Translations under genes and position numbers: made by a program | Source: a virus | IMG/VR virus record: IMGVR_UViG_3300031578_000345 | Span: 1-23,285 of that record | Reading direction: 5' to 3' (one strand) | Length of the DNA stretch: 23,285 nt | Notes under the pieces: model-generated | The model's database searches: none | Seen by the model: the letters and a program-made list of their open reading frames with translations, nothing else | Told to the model about the DNA's origin: nothing | Shown: positions 4,744 to 23,247 of the stretch, piece after piece | How positions within the stretch are numbered: position 1 is the stretch's first letter | Layout of the letters: each line of letters opens with the position of its first letter

Positions 4744-5177
4744 GGTCCCATCCTCTTTATATAATTAACTAAAGTAACTGAAAACCGAATCGGTTTTTCC
4801 CCTTTTGATCCAAGAAGAAATTTAGTTTTCCCCATCTCGCTTAAATAACAATACCCGCCTAAAGGTTCTAATGGAGGTTTCATGTCTGCCCTTAAAGCAT
4901 TCCTCATTGTTTCGGTTAAAGACATAATTAGTTTCGCATTGGCCAATGTATCTGCAAACTCTACCATTATCACTATTCCGATGGTATATTGTTCATCATG
5001 GACAGCATATTGTGCTATGACTGGGAAGTTTTCATTTAATAAAAAATCTTCCCCTACTCCTACACAGGCCACAGGATAGGCACTATAACTCATTTGATCT
5101 CCAAAATAGACTCCCTTCAAAGTAACATCATTATTTACTATATCTATCACTTTGTCGATAACATCGGCTAAAGCCAA
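4740..5177 (-). CDS. Probable tail terminator / tail completion protein
   Basis: This 145-residue protein follows the gp10-like gene and precedes the tail tube genes, the usual place of the tail terminator (lambda gpU-like or SPP1 gp17-like). It opens MALADVIDKVIDIVNNDVTL. A central beta region, QYTIGIVIMVEFAD, and a C-terminal strand, KPIRFSVTLVNYI, fit the alpha/beta fold of these proteins. The start codon is TTG (5175-5177), preceded by GGGGGTGA at good spacing. Its stop overlaps the next gene as ATGA. The assignment rests mainly on gene order and size. Confidence 0.7.
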   Translation of the reverse strand: MALADVIDKVIDIVNNDVTLKGVYFGDQMSYSAYPVACVGVGEDFLLNENFPVIAQYAVHDEQYTIGIVIMVEFADTLANAKLIMSLTETMRNALRADMKPPLEPLGGYCYLSEMGKTKFLLGSKGEKPIRFSVTLVNYIKRMGP

Positions 5178-15039: not shown

Positions 15040-16221
15040 TTATGGTCTGCCTGCTAATGCAACGTAAGGGCTTCTGGTAGTAACTGCGTCTGCGGCTAAT
15101 ACGCCAGCATTCCATATTGGCTGACCGTCTATGCGTAATACAAACCTGAATACCTGTTCGTCAGTCATAAAGGCTACATGAATAGAACTTGCAGACTGTA
15201 TCCCACCGGCTCTTTCAACAAGGATATACTGACTCATATCGGCAAAGATTATATCTCCGACAGCACCAAGTGCAGGGCATTGCTCGATAGGTTGAATCGG
15301 TCTACCGAATAAAGTTCCATGAGGAGCATTGACAAATCCGCCAGCAGGTAAATATACCGGCAGTCCGCCTAATCCTGCAGGAACGAACATCCGCATTAAT
15401 TGGGGTTCTACATCCTGATTGATATACCATTTGGCATTGGTTCTATTTTTGGCAGGCATCAAATTCCACATACCCATTACATTTTCCGCTACAACGGTAG
15501 TAATAGGCTGTAAAGGTTCTGCGGCTTGCTGCACTAATCCACCGCCAAGTAAGATACCTAGAGGCATTCCTGCTCCGGTTCCGTTGATTATGGCATCGTC
15601 AATTCTCCATCCAAATTCGTCTGCAAATAATTTCGACACAATAGCCTCTAATGCAGTAGCATCTTCCAATAATTCATCGGTAGCATAGTATGCGCCGATA
15701 TGCTTATTGAGTTTCAAATCTATTTGTCTGAGGCTTGGTCTGGATGCTACTTTAGTTCCGGCTTCACATAACCAGTAAGTGCATAATGCACCACTTCTGA
15801 CTCCGGTAACTCTGGAAACTTCATTAATGGCATTTATGATTAATCTGTTGCTGGAAATAGGAACTTTCCAACAATCTCTGGTTACGATACCAGTTTCATA
15901 AGTCTGTGTTAATAATTGCTTTGAAAACTCCGGTGCAACTAAGAATCCGCCCTGTGCTCCAACACCTTCATTCATTCCCAGTTGTTTCTCTTGTTTATCA
16001 AAAACCTCATAAACCAATCTTGGATCTTTAATGTGTCTAGTCTCTACTCTTGCTACAGCCTGTAATTGCTCACCAAAAGATTTCCATGTTGGTTCGGGGT
16101 TATTTTTATCCCCGTCATCACTGACAGGTCTATCATTCGGATTAATTTTCACTAGTTCTTTTAGTTTTTCATCAATTGTCGTTTTAATCATCGCTACTAA
16201 TTCATCGGGTGTAAGTTTCAT
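15040..16221 (-). CDS. Major capsid protein, HK97 fold
   Basis: The 393-residue protein forms the icosahedral shell. Residues 1-80 are a charged helical N-terminal arm (delta-like, probably removed by the prohead protease). The capsid domain then opens GVGAQGGFLVAPEFSKQLLT (about 87-106), typical of HK97 gp5-like proteins. Later landmarks are LIINAINEVSR, LNKHIGAYYATDELLED (the spine-helix region), DEFGWRIDDAIINGTGAGMP, and a C-terminal AGVLAADAVTTRSPYVALA. The N-terminal arm is short compared with HK97 gp5, which fits a scaffold-like segment being carried by the upstream protease. It starts 7 bases after the protease stop with AAGGAAGTGATT upstream. Confidence 0.95.
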   Translation of the reverse strand: MKLTPDELVAMIKTTIDEKLKELVKINPNDRPVSDDGDKNNPEPTWKSFGEQLQAVARVETRHIKDPRLVYEVFDKQEKQLGMNEGVGAQGGFLVAPEFSKQLLTQTYETGIVTRDCWKVPISSNRLIINAINEVSRVTGVRSGALCTYWLCEAGTKVASRPSLRQIDLKLNKHIGAYYATDELLEDATALEAIVSKLFADEFGWRIDDAIINGTGAGMPLGILLGGGLVQQAAEPLQPITTVVAENVMGMWNLMPAKNRTNAKWYINQDVEPQLMRMFVPAGLGGLPVYLPAGGFVNAPHGTLFGRPIQPIEQCPALGAVGDIIFADMSQYILVERAGGIQSASSIHVAFMTDEQVFRFVLRIDGQPIWNAGVLAADAVTTRSPYVALAGRP

Positions 16222-16228
16222 TTTAAAA

Positions 16229-17734
16229 TCACTTCCTTTCGTTTTTTTTGTCGATTCTACCTACCACAAAATCAAACTTGCTATCTATCATGTCTTTAAT
16301 AATTGCTTCGTCTACTTCAAATGTATCTTCGTCTTTTTCTTCGACTATCGGTGGATCGTCTACTGTATCAGTTCCTAAATCTATTACTATATTGTCCTCT
16401 ATAACTTCTTTGGTATCCTCAATCTCCAAGCTATCTTCTACTATGGGTTCGGCAGAATCCAGTACATTTTGAATTTTATTCTGGGCATCCTTTAAGTCCT
16501 GTTTATTCCTTTTATTCAAGACTGCCCCAGCTTTCAATTCGAGTTCTTTATTTTCTTTTTCTAATTTATCGACCTTCTCTTTTAATTCTTTGTTTTCTTT
16601 AATAACCTCACTTACATTTAAAGCTAGAATCATATCTTCTAAACTTTTTATTAAAGCATCATATTCTTTGTTATCTTTTCCCTTAATAACCTCATCAGCA
16701 TCAGAGCCTTCACCCTTCTCTTCTTTTTCCTCTGTAAGAAAAGGCTCATCTAAATCAATATCTTCATATTCTTTGTTATGGTCCTTAACCCATTGTCTTG
16801 CAGACTCCAATGTCCACCCTTTAGACTTGTCAAATATGAATTTCTGTGTTTTAGTCGAACCTTGCGGATCGGATTTGAGCTTTCCGATTACTGCTTTGAT
16901 TCCTTTCTTGGCATCTATGTCAATCGTTCTGAATGAATCCTTTACAAAATCCCCTGCTGACCTTACCGGGATGTGTATAAATGCTTCGGTTTCTTCGGGC
17001 TTGAGAACTATTTCTTTTTCTAATTCTTTGTTAATTACATAACTATTTTCTTCTGTTAAATAACCACTCTTTTCATCAGTCACATAACCGCCTTCTTTTA
17101 TCTCTTCATCTAATTCAAATAATTCATCAGATTGCTTTTCTTCCTCTATTGCCTTTTCATCTATCTTTTCATTAATAATTTCATCCTCTATCTCAATAAA
17201 TCCAGCTTCCTTCAATGTATCAATATTGATACCTTTAGCCATCATGTTAGTTAAGGCCTCTGGATTAGAAGGAACAGTACAACCCGAATATTCCAATAAT
17301 TCAGAAGTTTTTATTCGTTTGCCTCTCCTGATATGATCTTCTTCATCTTTTCCTTTTTCATCTTCAATATCCTCAGTTTTCATAGGTATAAATCCGATAC
17401 TCCAGGCTCGCATAAATTTATCCTTGTAGAGTCTATAAACTGTGTCAGCAAGCGGATAGACACCTTCATCCGGAAATACCACATCCGAAGTAATACCATT
17501 ATCAGTTTTCTTTATATTTTCAGCTCTCGCAATAGGTAATCCCCTATAATCATGGGCCATAAGCACCACAGGATTTTTCCTATAATTAGTCAAACTTATT
17601 CCTTTTGGCTCGACTATATCGCCATCCCTATCCACAGTATTAGTGGTAATGGTAACGTTTAAAACACGTCTACCCTTGTCCTCAACTACCTTTGTCTCTG
17701 CCTCATAAGTCTTTATCATTATTTCTTCTGGCAT
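16229..17734 (-). CDS. Prohead protease (HK97 gp4/U35-like) fused to an extra domain and a scaffold-like coiled coil
   Basis: Numbered from ATG 17732-17734 (501 residues). Residues 1-165 are the serine protease: VDRDGDIVEPKGI, VVLMAHDYRGLPIARA with the catalytic His at about 61, RAWSIGFIPM with the catalytic Ser at about 112, and SGCTVPSNPEAL. An acidic linker follows. About 252-320 is a separate conserved-looking domain (IPVRSAGDFVKDSFRTIDID, KAVIGKLKSDPQGSTKTQKF, GWTLESARQWVKDHN). From about 358 to 425 is a coiled coil (ENKELKEKVDKLEKENKELE), then an acidic tail. The protease matures the capsid; the coiled coil probably supplies the scaffold or delta function. The in-frame GTG at 17744-17746 lies inside the GAGGTGA ribosome binding site, so I prefer the ATG. 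HK97 gp4 has 225 residues, so this is more than double. Confidence 0.9.
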   Translation of the reverse strand: MPEEIMIKTYEAETKVVEDKGRRVLNVTITTNTVDRDGDIVEPKGISLTNYRKNPVVLMAHDYRGLPIARAENIKKTDNGITSDVVFPDEGVYPLADTVYRLYKDKFMRAWSIGFIPMKTEDIEDEKGKDEEDHIRRGKRIKTSELLEYSGCTVPSNPEALTNMMAKGINIDTLKEAGFIEIEDEIINEKIDEKAIEEEKQSDELFELDEEIKEGGYVTDEKSGYLTEENSYVINKELEKEIVLKPEETEAFIHIPVRSAGDFVKDSFRTIDIDAKKGIKAVIGKLKSDPQGSTKTQKFIFDKSKGWTLESARQWVKDHNKEYEDIDLDEPFLTEEKEEKGEGSDADEVIKGKDNKEYDALIKSLEDMILALNVSEVIKENKELKEKVDKLEKENKELELKAGAVLNKRNKQDLKDAQNKIQNVLDSAEPIVEDSLEIEDTKEVIEDNIVIDLGTDTVDDPPIVEEKDEDTFEVDEAIIKDMIDSKFDFVVGRIDKKNERK

Positions 17735-17759
17735 TAATTTATTCACCTCACTTTCTTTA

Positions 17760-18117: not shown

Positions 18118-18837
18118 TCATATATATTCTAATATTCTCTTTATACATTCATCGGGGTTCTTATTTATTTCTTTTTCCCATAAATGTAAAACTTTATAGC
18201 CTTCTTCTTCTAAAAATAATGTTTGCCTTTTATCTCTTTCCTTTACTTTAGGTAAATTGTGCCAATAGTCTCCATCAACTTCTATAATTAAATTAGGTTT
18301 AATAAAAAAGTCTGCTACCCCTAATTGATATTTAAATTGACATATAAATGATATTTTATTTTCTATTAAATAATTAGCTAATTTCTTTTCAATATTACTC
18401 GGATTATTTCGATGAGATGTTGTATAACAGCCCAAACATCTTCGGGAACAGAAATGACGTTCATACATTTTAATTTTTGCTGGTTTTTCTCTATATGTCT
18501 TTCCACAATAATCACAGGTAATATCTGATTTATTATATAATGGATGTTCCTCTCCTGTTATTCTTCTTTTGCTTTCATTTAAACATTCCTGACTGCAATA
18601 TTTAGAACTTTCATATCTACTTAATATTATAGGATATATATTTCCACAAATAATACATTCCTTAGTTAAATTTGTTTTATTCCAGGGTTTAGGCATTAAG
18701 CCTTTTGTATTCTTATTCCAAGGAATATTACCTTTTTTTACTCCACTATTACTTAATTGAGGATAATCTTCTTTTGTTTTACCTTCACACCAAGTCTTAT
18801 GACCTTTTTTAAATCTACCATCATTTATTTTTATCAT
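18118..18837 (-). CDS. Vsr-like (EDxHD) homing endonuclease with NUMOD3-type repeats and Cys-pair zinc fingers
   Basis: This 239-residue protein has three parts. Residues 1-55 hold DNA-binding repeats of the NUMOD3 kind (RFKKGHKTWCEGK, KKGNIPWNKN, PKPWNK). Residues about 61-85 and 108-134 each carry two Cys pairs (CIIC with CSQEC; CDYC with CSRRC), likely zinc fingers. Residues 145-239 are a very-short-patch-repair-like nuclease: Glu150 in NIEKKL, Asp176 in VADFFI, then IEVDGDYWH with Asp188, Asp190 and His193. This is the EDxHD pattern of phage homing endonucleases. It starts two bases after the portal-MuF stop, without a visible ribosome binding site. The gene is very AT-rich (17 of 60 G+C at 18241-18300, against 35 of 60 at 19081-19140 in the portal), which suggests foreign origin. 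Confidence 0.85.
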   Translation of the reverse strand: MIKINDGRFKKGHKTWCEGKTKEDYPQLSNSGVKKGNIPWNKNTKGLMPKPWNKTNLTKECIICGNIYPIILSRYESSKYCSQECLNESKRRITGEEHPLYNKSDITCDYCGKTYREKPAKIKMYERHFCSRRCLGCYTTSHRNNPSNIEKKLANYLIENKISFICQFKYQLGVADFFIKPNLIIEVDGDYWHNLPKVKERDKRQTLFLEEEGYKVLHLWEKEINKNPDECIKRILEYI

Positions 18838-18839
18838 TA

Positions 18840-20852
18840 TTATTTATCCAAGACAGGCAAAATTACACATCTACATTGAACGTGATTTGGAGGTGCGTCT
18901 ACCCCACTACTAAAATTTTCATCTAATCCAACAATCTCTTTATGCATAGCTGAACATTCCTCGCAAGTTCGTTCATCAAGGGCACAATACCATTCCTTTT
19001 TTTTAACTACTTCACTTTGCCTATAAGCCTCTATTGCTCCTTTATTACTTGCAGATAAAATTTCAGTTCTTGCTATCCTTGTAGCCCTGAATCCCTTGGC
19101 ATCCTCGTAGACCGCCTTGACCCTGCTGGCAAGTTTGGGTATGCTTTCCCCTGATTCAATCCCTTCAATTAAAGTCTTTCTTAATAAATCTTTGGTAGTG
19201 TCGGCTATGCCTTTAATAGAATTACCGCACCGCTTTTTAATCCATGCTACTACTTTGGGATTGGTTACATCGAAGCTACCCTCTACCCCCAACTCTATAA
19301 AACTTTCAGTGCCATTCAACCTTAATGTCTCGGTAATTCTGGGCAAGACAAATTCTATAAACTTGGCAATTTCTCTTTCATCGTGGGTGATCCGTAGTAC
19401 ATCGTCAACATCTTTTTCAACGATTGACTTGCCTTTCCGTAAAGCCCTTAAAGCCTCTATCTCCTGTTCCTGAAATAATTTGGTTATTCCCCTTCTAAAC
19501 TCATTCTCCAAAGGGGTAACTCGCCTGATAAATGCTTTCCAGTAATTCTCTTTATATTCCTCTGTTATTTTTTTTTTATGTACTTCCCTTAAATCTTCCG
19601 TAAATTCTGCCATTTTTTCAGGTGATAGTTCTACAGTTGGTTTTTTATCACCGGATAATGGCATAACATTAAAAGGCACAAGCGGGACTTTTCCCCATTC
19701 TGCCTCATCCATTCCATCTTCAACCCTAGCCTCATTAGGTGATATTACCCAATTCTTTAAATTGCTTTCCCTTTTCTTTAATAGAAATTCCTCATCTTCG
19801 GGAATGGGATTATCAAACTCGCAATGCAGGCCATCCTCTTTATATAGCGGAATCAGGAAAGTATTGAAAATCTCGGAAATCCTAATTAATCGCGGTAAGA
19901 TACATTCCCGGTTCCAGGCTGTATCAAGCGCCTGCATGTTGGCCAAGTTAGTATTCTCAGGATGGGATAGCTTTTGAGGCGGGGTATGATAGGCACTGGC
20001 CAACTGCCTCATGGTCCATTCGGCAAGCAGCATAAACTCCATGTCCTTGTTGGATATGCCGATATTCTTATATTTCAATCCACCGGTTAACACCCCGGTC
20101 TTATGTGCTTTGGCAGCACCGCCGTAAGTCTCTTCAAATAATGCCAATATCTTGTTGGCCTGATCCGGCTTTATAGTCAAATCAGATTCCAATACTCCCT
20201 TCAGATGTGCCCCATTCTTGAATACGTTCAACTGGTAAATCATATTATACTTATCGGTATCATAAGCATAGGCTTTTCTTTGGACCGGGCTTGCGCCTCT
20301 GTATGGATCGGAAGGATTAGAATAATGAAAAAATAAAATATCTTCGCGGGGATAGATAATCTCATGCATCCCTTCCCGGTATTTATAGCTCTCAATCATT
20401 CCCTTGCTTACTTTTGGAGTCATCTTTTCGGGACTCCTGAAGTAAAATTCTCTCGGTATGCCCAGCCTGTCTTTCAGCATTAATATATAGCATTCCCCGG
20501 TCAAGTCTTGATAAATTGAAATAAATTCTTTGCCCATAAATTGGGTGGTGTCGGGATTGAAATGCTTTAATAGGTCATAGAAGGGGTGTTCCTCGATTAG
20601 CTCGTCATCTTTGTTGTAAAGCCTTAAAGGGATTGAAGCGATCCTTTCGGCAATTAATGAGATGCAGTCCCCGGTCCATCCTGAATATGCCTTAATCTGC
20701 TCTGAAGTATTGCGGTAAGTATTATCACTATAAGAATTGGACTCACTGCCAGGCCAGTAACGAGGGTCGTTGATTCTTGAGGTTTCACTTGACTTAAATA
20801 AATTAATGTCAATATTGAATCTTCTCTTGGCAAATTGTATATCTAGTTTTAT
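18840..20852 (-). CDS. Portal protein fused to MuF/SPP1 gp7-like head morphogenesis domain, non-canonical start
   Basis: The portal forms the dodecameric DNA entry ring. The open frame extends upstream of the first ATG (20535-20537) to a stop at 20865-20867. The added residues are clearly portal: GWTGDCISLIAERIASIPLR, LYNKDDELIEEHPFYDLLKH, FNPDTTQF. No ATG, GTG or TTG occurs in that extension. The likely start is ATA (20850-20852) or ATT (20853-20855), seven or four bases after a GGGGG ribosome binding site; the first codons would read M/I-KLDIQFAKRRF. That gives about 670 residues. The portal core runs to about residue 390 (HTPPQKLSHPENTNLANMQA included). A helical linker follows, and the last 85 residues are a MuF domain: IARTEILSASNKGAIEAYR, DERTCEECSAMH, PPNHVQCRC. 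In many phages the portal and this minor head protein are separate genes. Confidence 0.88.
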   Translation of the reverse strand: MKLDIQFAKRRFNIDINLFKSSETSRINDPRYWPGSESNSYSDNTYRNTSEQIKAYSGWTGDCISLIAERIASIPLRLYNKDDELIEEHPFYDLLKHFNPDTTQFMGKEFISIYQDLTGECYILMLKDRLGIPREFYFRSPEKMTPKVSKGMIESYKYREGMHEIIYPREDILFFHYSNPSDPYRGASPVQRKAYAYDTDKYNMIYQLNVFKNGAHLKGVLESDLTIKPDQANKILALFEETYGGAAKAHKTGVLTGGLKYKNIGISNKDMEFMLLAEWTMRQLASAYHTPPQKLSHPENTNLANMQALDTAWNRECILPRLIRISEIFNTFLIPLYKEDGLHCEFDNPIPEDEEFLLKKRESNLKNWVISPNEARVEDGMDEAEWGKVPLVPFNVMPLSGDKKPTVELSPEKMAEFTEDLREVHKKKITEEYKENYWKAFIRRVTPLENEFRRGITKLFQEQEIEALRALRKGKSIVEKDVDDVLRITHDEREIAKFIEFVLPRITETLRLNGTESFIELGVEGSFDVTNPKVVAWIKKRCGNSIKGIADTTKDLLRKTLIEGIESGESIPKLASRVKAVYEDAKGFRATRIARTEILSASNKGAIEAYRQSEVVKKKEWYCALDERTCEECSAMHKEIVGLDENFSSGVDAPPNHVQCRCVILPVLDK

Positions 20853-21712
20853 AATATCACCCCCTTATTCATTCTCAACATATAATCTTCTTCACTATTT
20901 CCCCAATATCCCATCGTAAACATTCCATTAATTATGTTTTCATTAGGCAATAATAATCCAGTTTTATCATAAATTCTTGACCTAATGTTAAAATATGCCC
21001 ATTTCTTTCCTTCTTTGCTATGTATCCTATCATGACATTTTTCACACAATGTTATTCCATTATTTATATCCCATAACAATTTACATTTTATAGCTGCCTG
21101 AAAATCTATTATTTCAAAATATTGTATTATTTTAGAAAAAGATATTATATGATGAGAATTAAGATTGTGTCCTTTATTATTTCCACATATTTGGCAAGTA
21201 TAATTATCTCTTTTATACACTTTTCTTCTCCACTCATCATATTTTCTATAACTTCTAATTTTAATCATTAATGGAGTTATCCCACCTTTCCAATTATGAT
21301 TATTTAAACCTGCTACTTGAGGAAATTTATTATTTTTATTCCAAGGGTTCCCCCCATTTTCGTAAAATCTTTTCTGACCCTCAAGAAATTTTTGAACATT
21401 TTTCATTACCCTAATATCATTATCTCTTCTTAAACCTTTATTCCAAGGAATATGACCTTTTCTAAACACTTGGGAATTCCTACCCATTTTTTCTAATGTT
21501 TCTTTAGAATATACTCCTATTTTCCCTTTATTCCAGGGGATATGACCTTTATTTGTTTCAGATAAAGAACGAATGGGAATATTATATTTTTTGAGCCAAT
21601 ATAATATCGTTTTGGAGTTTACTCTTGATAATTTTCCAATCTTTACTGTCGATAATTTATCTACAATATATTTTTGGTATAACCATTCTTTATTCCTATA
21701 CAATTTTCCCAA
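20849..21712 (-). CDS. HNH homing endonuclease with NUMOD3-type repeats
   Basis: The 287-residue protein starts with TTG (21710-21712), nine bases after AAAGGAG. Residues about 10-50 form a helix-turn-helix-like region (WLYQKYIVDKLSTVKIGKLS). Then come three copies of a NUMOD3-type motif: KGHIPWNKGK, KGHIPWNKGL and GGNPWNKNN. Residues 165-232 are the HNH nuclease: CQIC (173-176), SHHI with His188, Asn218 in NNGITLC, and CEKCH with His227, followed by His231. Such enzymes cut phage genomes lacking the gene and so spread it. It lies between terminase and portal, is extremely AT-rich (11 of 60 G+C at 21121-21180), and has its own leader with a promoter-like sequence and a terminator hairpin. Its last codons contain the portal's ribosome binding site, and its stop overlaps the portal's presumed start. 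Confidence 0.9.
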   Translation of the reverse strand: MGKLYRNKEWLYQKYIVDKLSTVKIGKLSRVNSKTILYWLKKYNIPIRSLSETNKGHIPWNKGKIGVYSKETLEKMGRNSQVFRKGHIPWNKGLRRDNDIRVMKNVQKFLEGQKRFYENGGNPWNKNNKFPQVAGLNNHNWKGGITPLMIKIRSYRKYDEWRRKVYKRDNYTCQICGNNKGHNLNSHHIISFSKIIQYFEIIDFQAAIKCKLLWDINNGITLCEKCHDRIHSKEGKKWAYFNIRSRIYDKTGLLLPNENIINGMFTMGYWGNSEEDYMLRMNKGVIL

Positions 21713-21734: not shown

Positions 21735-21780
21735 AAAAAAAGCCAAAAACAAAATCGGTCAAGATTTCATTCTTGGCTTT
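21735..21780 (-). terminator. Terminator-like hairpin in the leader of the HNH gene
   Basis: On the minus strand AAAGCCAA and TTGGCTTT form an 8-bp stem around an inner AAATC/GATTT pairing with a TTGACC loop, followed by a T-run (TTTTTTTATTTT). It lies between a promoter-like sequence and the TTG start, only 22 bases from the start codon. It may stop read-through from the terminase gene or act as an attenuator for the endonuclease. Its outer sequences match the hairpin at 18023-18071. Confidence 0.75.
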
Positions 21781-21819
21781 CTGGAAGCTCACAAATTATA
21801 TATTCACATTCAGTTTATT

Positions 21820-21848
21820 ACCTTATCACACTTTTTATTATATGTCAA
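21820..21848 (-). promoter_or_regulatory. Probable promoter for the HNH endonuclease
   Basis: Minus-strand TTGACA (21843-21848) is followed after 17 bases by TAAGGT (21820-21825) with an extended -10 TG (TGA TAAGGT). The -35 is perfect; the -10 is weak but helped by the TG. A TATAAT also directly abuts the TTGACA, but no -35 sits at the right distance from it. The leader would contain the terminator-like hairpin before the start codon. Confidence 0.5.
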
Positions 21849-21857
21849 GAATTATTT

Positions 21858-21941
21858 TCAATTATTTTTAAACAGTGTTGCCGGTATAGCCCGCACTCTG
21901 CATTTGGCTATCTCGATATATTCCTTCTCGTTATCAATCAT
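21858..21941 (-). pseudogene. 27-residue ORF overlapping the terminase stop, possible remnant of an interrupted gene
   Basis: An ATG at 21939-21941, four bases after GGGAGGG, overlaps the last codons of the terminase gene. It encodes MIDNEKEYIEIAKCRVRAIP plus seven more residues and ends at TGA 21858-21860. Its base composition (for example AGAGTGCGGGCTATACCGGC) is like the phage genes, and becomes very AT-rich exactly at its end, where the HNH leader begins. I read it as the front of a gene broken by insertion of the endonuclease; it could instead be a real small protein. Confidence 0.45.
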
Positions 21942-23247
21942 CTGCCCTCCCGCTTGAAACAAAGAAACCAGGCTGAACCATCATATAATAAGCCGTATAC
22001 ATTACCATGCGAATACAATCCATTGCATGATCCATTCCCTTCTCCGGCTCTTCTACAATATTGCCTTCCCTGTCTTTCATTCTCTGATAGCTTTCAATCT
22101 CAGCTTTAACCTTTACACTTCTTTTGGTTATCTTAATTCTAAATTGCTGTACATAGTCAATCCCTGCCTTGACTGATCCTTTGCCCTTATTGCAGGGCTG
22201 GATATAGGGGAAGCCATTTTCCTCATAGGCTATTTCTAATTTGCCGGTTTCTTTATTGATTCTTTCTTCTTTGTAATACCAAGTTTCCAATTCTTTTATT
22301 TTTTCCGGTGCTTCGCTGTCGGCTATTATTGTAAGATTATTCAATTTCTTCCCATTCATATCTTTAGCCAACTCCGGTATAGTCTGCCGGGTCTTATAAG
22401 ATAACTCATCTACATAAATTATCTTTTCTTCCATATCTACTACGGTTTTTAATAGGCATTGTGGATTGATATACCCAAAATCAAGCCCCAAGGTCGGCTC
22501 ATCATCCGGGAACTCATTATCTTCTATTAATTCCCAGTTAGTATAGATAGCATTCTCCAACATGCCATATTGGCCTAAGGTAAATACAGTTCTCATATTG
22601 CCGGTATAGCCTTCCAATAATTTCTTGTAGGCCAAATCTTCCTTGATATAAATATTGTCTTTGTAGGTAGTGGTTAGTATAGTAATATCTTCTTTTTCTT
22701 CTTCGGTCAGGCCAGAGAAAAAACGTTTATAAGTCCAGTTGCTTTTCAGGATAGGATTGTAGGTTAATATAATCTGCATGTAAGTATGGAATATTCCTCG
22801 CAGTCTCCGGTCTAATTCCTCAAAATCCTTCAAGTATAATTCGGTGGCTTCTTCTATCCATATCCCAGTTATACGTTCAATCGATTTTAATTTTTCCTCT
22901 TTATCTAATCCTTTAAATAATATCTCATTCCCATTGCTTCTAAAGGTGATAGTCATGCTGGCTTCATTAATCTTAAATTCATCCCATAGATCCCATTTAA
23001 GAATATAATCTTTAAATAACTGAAATACTGATGTCCTGATAGTATCCTTGACTTTCCTGATAATTAAAAAACGATGGCGTTCTTCAGTCATTATTCTATG
23101 CAGTATCTTCTGACAGACAAAATGTGATTTACCTGCCCCGGCTCCACCCTTTAAGATCAGATATCTTTTCTGATTATAGAGCAATGGAATATATACAGGA
23201 TTTAGAACATTTTCAAATTGACTTAAATCAATTACAGTTTCTTGCAT
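21934..23247 (-). CDS. Terminase large subunit, PBSX/Terminase_3 type
   Basis: The 437-residue DNA packaging motor and nuclease. The ATPase part has the Walker A motif GGAGAGKS (34-41), Walker B IWIEEATE (129-136, Glu132/133) and a coupling motif IILTYNP (159-165). The nuclease part has LGLDFGY with Asp256, IIADSEAPEK with Asp310, and DHAMDCIR with Asp406/Asp410: the RNase H-like acidic triad. The length is normal for PBSX-type terminases. The gene appears intact. An upstream gene, probably the small subunit, overlaps its start. The endonuclease region follows directly. Confidence 0.96.
   Translation of the reverse strand: MQETVIDLSQFENVLNPVYIPLLYNQKRYLILKGGAGAGKSHFVCQKILHRIMTEERHRFLIIRKVKDTIRTSVFQLFKDYILKWDLWDEFKINEASMTITFRSNGNEILFKGLDKEEKLKSIERITGIWIEEATELYLKDFEELDRRLRGIFHTYMQIILTYNPILKSNWTYKRFFSGLTEEEKEDITILTTTYKDNIYIKEDLAYKKLLEGYTGNMRTVFTLGQYGMLENAIYTNWELIEDNEFPDDEPTLGLDFGYINPQCLLKTVVDMEEKIIYVDELSYKTRQTIPELAKDMNGKKLNNLTIIADSEAPEKIKELETWYYKEERINKETGKLEIAYEENGFPYIQPCNKGKGSVKAGIDYVQQFRIKITKRSVKVKAEIESYQRMKDREGNIVEEPEKGMDHAMDCIRMVMYTAYYMMVQPGFFVSSGRADD

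Follow-up and report, generated by a model that had tools for sequence, protein, structure and literature searches.

Most probably, translation of the portal gene in the window (the whole 23,285-nucleotide stretch of viral DNA analysed here) starts at an AUA codon secured by an extended Shine-Dalgarno (SD) sequence, the weak translation expected from such a start being kept by selection for portal scarcity. The gene (18840..20852, minus strand, from ATA to TAA) encodes a predicted protein of 670 amino acids with a portal domain (Pfam Phage_portal, 4.5e-57, residues 63-377) and a C-terminal MuF domain (Phage_Mu_F, 1.6e-21, residues 557-664); these domain matches exceed the curated cut-offs and the protein also has a PHROG 2662 portal match (3e-100). 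Upstream, an in-frame TAA (20865..20867, minus strand) closes the portal frame, which then reads GGG GGT GAT ATT ATA AAA CTA... and has as its first ATG, GTG, or TTG the ATG at 20537-20535 (minus strand), codon 106 counted from the ATA. The frame was re-read and the coordinates that the initial annotation gave for this start-free interval are correct. It had also recognized clear portal sequence upstream of the first ATG, in agreement with a Pfam match that opens at residue 63 and with invariant residues in the portal alignment from about residue 52 onward. A gap of 105 codons without any ATG/GTG/TTG has a chance of ~1% at the portal’s own codon frequencies; by itself such a gap would be weak evidence, and it is conservation among relatives that makes the observation real.

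Portal searches in IMG/VR yielded some 60 relatives, with a readable start region in 52 loci in addition to the window and 45 sequences once near-identical ones were dropped. In these 45 non-redundant sequences (the window and relatives ~53-82% identical), the codon behind the SD helix, corresponding to the ATA at 20850..20852 (minus strand) in the window, is ATA in 29, ATT in 6, ATC in 5, and TTG in 5, so that the test of codon-class conservation gives isoleucine codons in 40/45, TTG in 5/45, and ATG or GTG in 0/45. Along the portal tree (41 rows) there are ~11 start-codon changes among the four states ATA, ATT, ATC, and TTG; the switch between the Ile box and TTG occurs three times and ATG or GTG is never reached. 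The codon preceding the start is random among relatives (ATT, ACC, CTT, AAT, CAT, GCT, CAA, etc.), and amino-acid entropy is 0.5 bits at the proposed start versus 3.0 and 3.1 bits at the two preceding codons. Portal coding conservation begins exactly at the proposed start codon. The rare AUA or AUU start suggested in the initial annotation is thus supported for the ATA but not for the ATT, whose codon is the one that varies at random. Clade II sequences carry an in-frame TGA or TAG 1-2 codons upstream (TGA TAG CAT ATA; TGA TTC AAT ATA), which leaves ATA as the only sensible candidate there, and the corresponding region of L016 reads TGA TGT CAA ATA. Leucine at the start position is encoded by TTG in 5/5 cases, whereas at an Ile/Leu codon four positions further downstream it is TTA in 9/9 and TTG in none (the rows are related and the comparison carries no formal probability); this exclusive use of TTG is as expected if the initiator tRNA reads the position. 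These sequence comparisons speak strongly for the start site; that initiation does occur at this codon, and that it is weak, we infer. Gene finders restricted to ATG/GTG/TTG would cut ~105 residues from the portal, or misplace its start, in this phage family.

A strong SD in the last codons of the upstream HNH gene, already remarked upon in the initial annotation, is indeed present: AAGGGGGTGAT (20856..20866, minus strand) lies just ahead of the ATA and forms a predicted duplex of -17.5 kcal/mol with a 16S-like 3′ end. All relatives possess a strong SD, the helix ending mostly 2-4 nt (range 1-6 nt) ahead of the start codon, and pairing can involve up to 11 bases of a standard 16S 3′ end. Across relatives the predicted duplexes range from -12.5 to -20.5 kcal/mol with the Bacillus-like 16S 3′ end used, which may not be that of the host. 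Initiator fMet-tRNA would start the portal at the AUA (20852-20850), held on this weak codon by the unusually long SD helix AAGGGGGUGAU. A phage-coded special initiator tRNA was looked for and rejected, 12 loci being free of tRNA genes.

Standard start codons in frame upstream of the proposed start are completely absent from 25/45 sequences (the window and 24 non-redundant relatives). Five more (5/45) have TTG at the start place itself, and in 3/45 the only ones are remote, located in the terminator or ahead of the SD. In the remaining 12/45, a standard codon in frame (ATG in 4, GTG in 8) falls inside the SD helix or at its edge, 2-3 codons ahead of the Ile codon, and could serve as start in those relatives, though its spacing to the SD core would be very short. 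Two other candidates were discarded: the GTG inside GGGGGTGAT does not lie in the portal's frame in clade I or in the window, with GCG or GGCGAT instead in L014 and L033, and in clade II the ATG of ATGAAAGGGG, further upstream, is mostly out of frame, with ACG in L022 and L044. We also rejected a hairpin that would sequester the SD by pairing with the codons CCC TTT of an IPF motif; it pairs in many relatives, the window itself being without it, but synonymous-codon randomisation lent it no support overall (mean z of -0.26, with p<0.05 in 2/45). At portal codons +5/+6, those relatives that have the IPF motif strongly prefer CCC for proline (26/37, versus 16% elsewhere), and its pairing with the SD would put the AUA in the hairpin loop.

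Very few AUA/AUU/AUC starts have been secured, and those that we found in the literature belong to host genes, mostly regulatory. In Staphylococcus aureus, extended SD helices with AUA or AUU initiation have been experimentally shown for infC, ccpN, cvfC1, and citZ; for the last three, reporters tested in poor medium gave ~10% of the level obtained with AUG (PMC13009471). IF3 destabilises or represses initiation complexes on such non-canonical codons, and the weak start of sigR sets protein ratios inside an operon (PMC5472188; also PMC2268962). The gene for IF3 itself, infC, starts with ATT in E. coli and ATC in Streptomyces (PMC5472188) and with AUA in S. aureus (PMC13009471). The portal gene resembles infC in its conserved AUA/AUU/AUC start, exchanged inside the Ile box, and probably in the maintenance of a weak start by selection; however, infC is a regulatory gene of the host whose product exerts feedback on it, whereas the portal is a phage structural gene where UUG is also allowed. 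It shares with ccpN (AUA) and cvfC1 (AUU) of S. aureus and relatives an Ile-box start, a strong extended SD, and conservation across species (PMC13009471), although those are bacterial genes with experimental start mapping and the portal start is known from sequence alone. The likeness to Streptomyces sigR concerns a weak start that determines in what proportion the proteins of an operon are made; sigR differs by its GTC codon, its sigma/anti-sigma pair, and its demonstrated IF3 dependence (PMC5472188). The homologous portal of Geobacillus phage GBK2 (25% identity) has a strong SD and the gene order terS-terL-portal, but its annotated start is GTG and the Ile-box codon is absent. Our literature search, which covered only a minority of subscription papers and so does not prove absence, found no phage genes, structural ones included, with AUA/AUU starts. 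As the portal gene matches the class of conserved Ile-box starts on every sequence feature, we file it as a further member of this small known class, here a phage structural gene. A family-wide portal start that is AUA, AUU, AUC, or UUG and never AUG or GUG would represent a natural experiment in which weak initiation is under selection.

The minus strand of the window contains, in this order, terL, a short leader, the HNH gene, portal-MuF, a small DUF559/endonuclease-like gene, a prohead protease-like gene, the major capsid gene, and further head and tail genes. Three of them served as controls for start-codon use. The terminase large subunit gene terL (21934..23247, minus strand, Pfam Terminase_3) starts with ATG, as in 17/17 relatives. 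In the prohead protease-like gene (16229..17746, minus strand, PHROG 80), a conserved ATG occupies a fixed position and follows an SD of the same type as the portal's; the listed open reading frame (ORF) in the window opens with a GTG, and this ATG comes 4 codons later. The major capsid gene (15040..16221, minus strand, Pfam Phage_capsid) has its ATG behind GAAAGGAAGTGAT, and capsid starts are ATG in 25/28 cases on the same contigs. The difference can be seen within a single relative, L051, where the protease SD and start read AGGTGATTTAATATG and those of the portal AAAGGGGTGATTCAATATA. A scan of all ORF families on the relatives’ contigs detected no other sense gene family systematically devoid of starts, and the other large start-less ORF families lie antisense to known genes. 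AUG is therefore read normally in these genomes, with the portal singled out. A small ORF of ~27 codons (MIDNEKEYIEIAKCRVRAIPATLFKNN; 21857-21943, minus strand) overlaps the end of terL.

The leader contains a promoter-like sequence, TTGACA-17-TAAGGT (21820..21848, minus strand), and, ahead of the HNH and portal genes, a hairpin with a U-run that resembles an intrinsic terminator (21737..21782, minus strand; 20-bp stem, -24.2 kcal/mol, z -5.05). Many relatives have a similar terminator hairpin directly before the portal SD, and those without the HNH gene usually have either a promoter or a terminator hairpin there. Within the 200 nt that precede the portal start, near-consensus promoters, usually with an extended -10, occur in 31/43 relatives, versus 0.8 expected from shuffles and a single one in equally long stretches inside the portal gene. 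This enrichment suggests that the portal probably opens a strongly promoted head operon with AUG-starting later genes. In relatives, the leader (21737-21848 in the window, minus strand) also has a small 5′ hairpin (GCTT-CCAGA-AAGC; GCGT..ACGC in L021 and L051, GCTC..GAGC in L005 and L008), which seems to covary and has bases in common with the terminator; this arrangement looks like a transcription attenuator of the head operon. L021 carries, at ~4770-4980, a structured insert of ~200 nt between the terminator and the portal SD (GGTCTCGTGGCTG...CCCCCGCTTCGGGG...GCCGAGACC), also found in L020 and L022; it has no Rfam match and is possibly a mobile RNA element.

Portal rings are dodecamers, whereas capsids need hundreds of subunits, so that a weak first start would be a simple way to set the ratio. 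Selection would keep the weak portal codon across the phage family because it lowers the output of a protein needed in ~12 copies per virion, while the downstream protease and capsid, needed in larger amounts, start with AUG, probably on the same strongly promoted transcript. We infer copy-number control as the reason for the weak start, and this points to a way in which the 12 portal copies of each head may be set on a shared mRNA; the five TTG relatives have a moderately strong start, so extreme weakness would not always be required. Alternatively, the AUA start might be real but serve the purpose of tying the portal to IF3 levels or to the growth state, as in infC, sigR, and ccpN, instead of fixing a low rate, in which case portal synthesis would follow the host’s initiation-factor supply. 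IF3 represses non-canonical starts and the AUA efficiency of ccpN varies with the medium (PMC13009471, PMC5472188), but we saw no regulator, and genes for IF3 or bS21 are absent from 10 phage records, most of them fragments; we consider this purpose unlikely. A more elaborate version, in which the IF3-gated AUA/AUU/AUC start would act as a checkpoint, with head assembly licensed by the host initiation machinery and the leader terminator as a second gate, is quite speculative and we give it little weight.

The portal codon would have no special role if the hosts used AUA, AUU, and AUC as ordinary start codons. This has in its favour that a search of genome contigs, with alignment and a single protein, gave no host genome, but it is very improbable given that the other genes on these contigs almost all start with ATG and that the portal start position is never ATG.

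Explanations specific to the window involve the HNH endonuclease gene (20849..21712, minus strand, Pfam HNH, PHROG 8446), which is located between the leader with its terminator and the portal. Its TAA stop codon (20849..20851, minus strand) overlaps the portal start (ATAA) and may allow some termination-reinitiation coupling in the window, as a local addition. The HNH gene is also present in L002 and missing between terL and portal in L003-L008 and most other relatives. Since the relatives without it (L003-L008, L035, and most others) share the non-standard portal start, this start must be older than the HNH insertion, and neither boundary damage nor an HNH-portal frameshift, splicing, or a sequencing error can be its cause. 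Several possibilities raised in the initial annotation can be abandoned on this basis. An HNH-portal fusion produced by a -1 slip on the GGGGG run, or a start supplied by splicing, is scarcely credible, since, although the portal frame is indeed -1 relative to HNH over GGGGG, the upstream HNH frame is absent in most relatives, which have a promoter or terminator directly upstream, clade II has its in-frame stops directly before the ATA, and no intron RNA has a match in Rfam. A recent ATG to ATA mutation at the insertion boundary would require one transition and would keep the HNH stop (TGA to TAA), but both this and a simple sequencing error are extremely improbable, as the start region is the same in the independent contig L002, which shows 90 differences from the window over 5712 bp (98.4% identity), and ATG is found at the start codon in 0/45 sequences, most of them without HNH. 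Translation from the internal ATG (20535..20537, minus strand), the first standard start in the portal frame, can practically be dismissed because it lies inside the portal domain past many invariant or nearly invariant residues, so that the first ~40 residues of the domain would be lost, and relatives have no conserved start there.

Related phages have relatives of the HNH gene elsewhere, at G016:C1:5301-5786 (the record of L016) and in G002 (the record of L009), one of which has an in-frame TGA, fitting a mobile homing-type gene. Directly after the portal, the window encodes a DUF559/MTES_1575 endonuclease-like gene with IPWNK-type repeats (18118-18837, minus strand), and the portal is thus flanked by two endonuclease genes.
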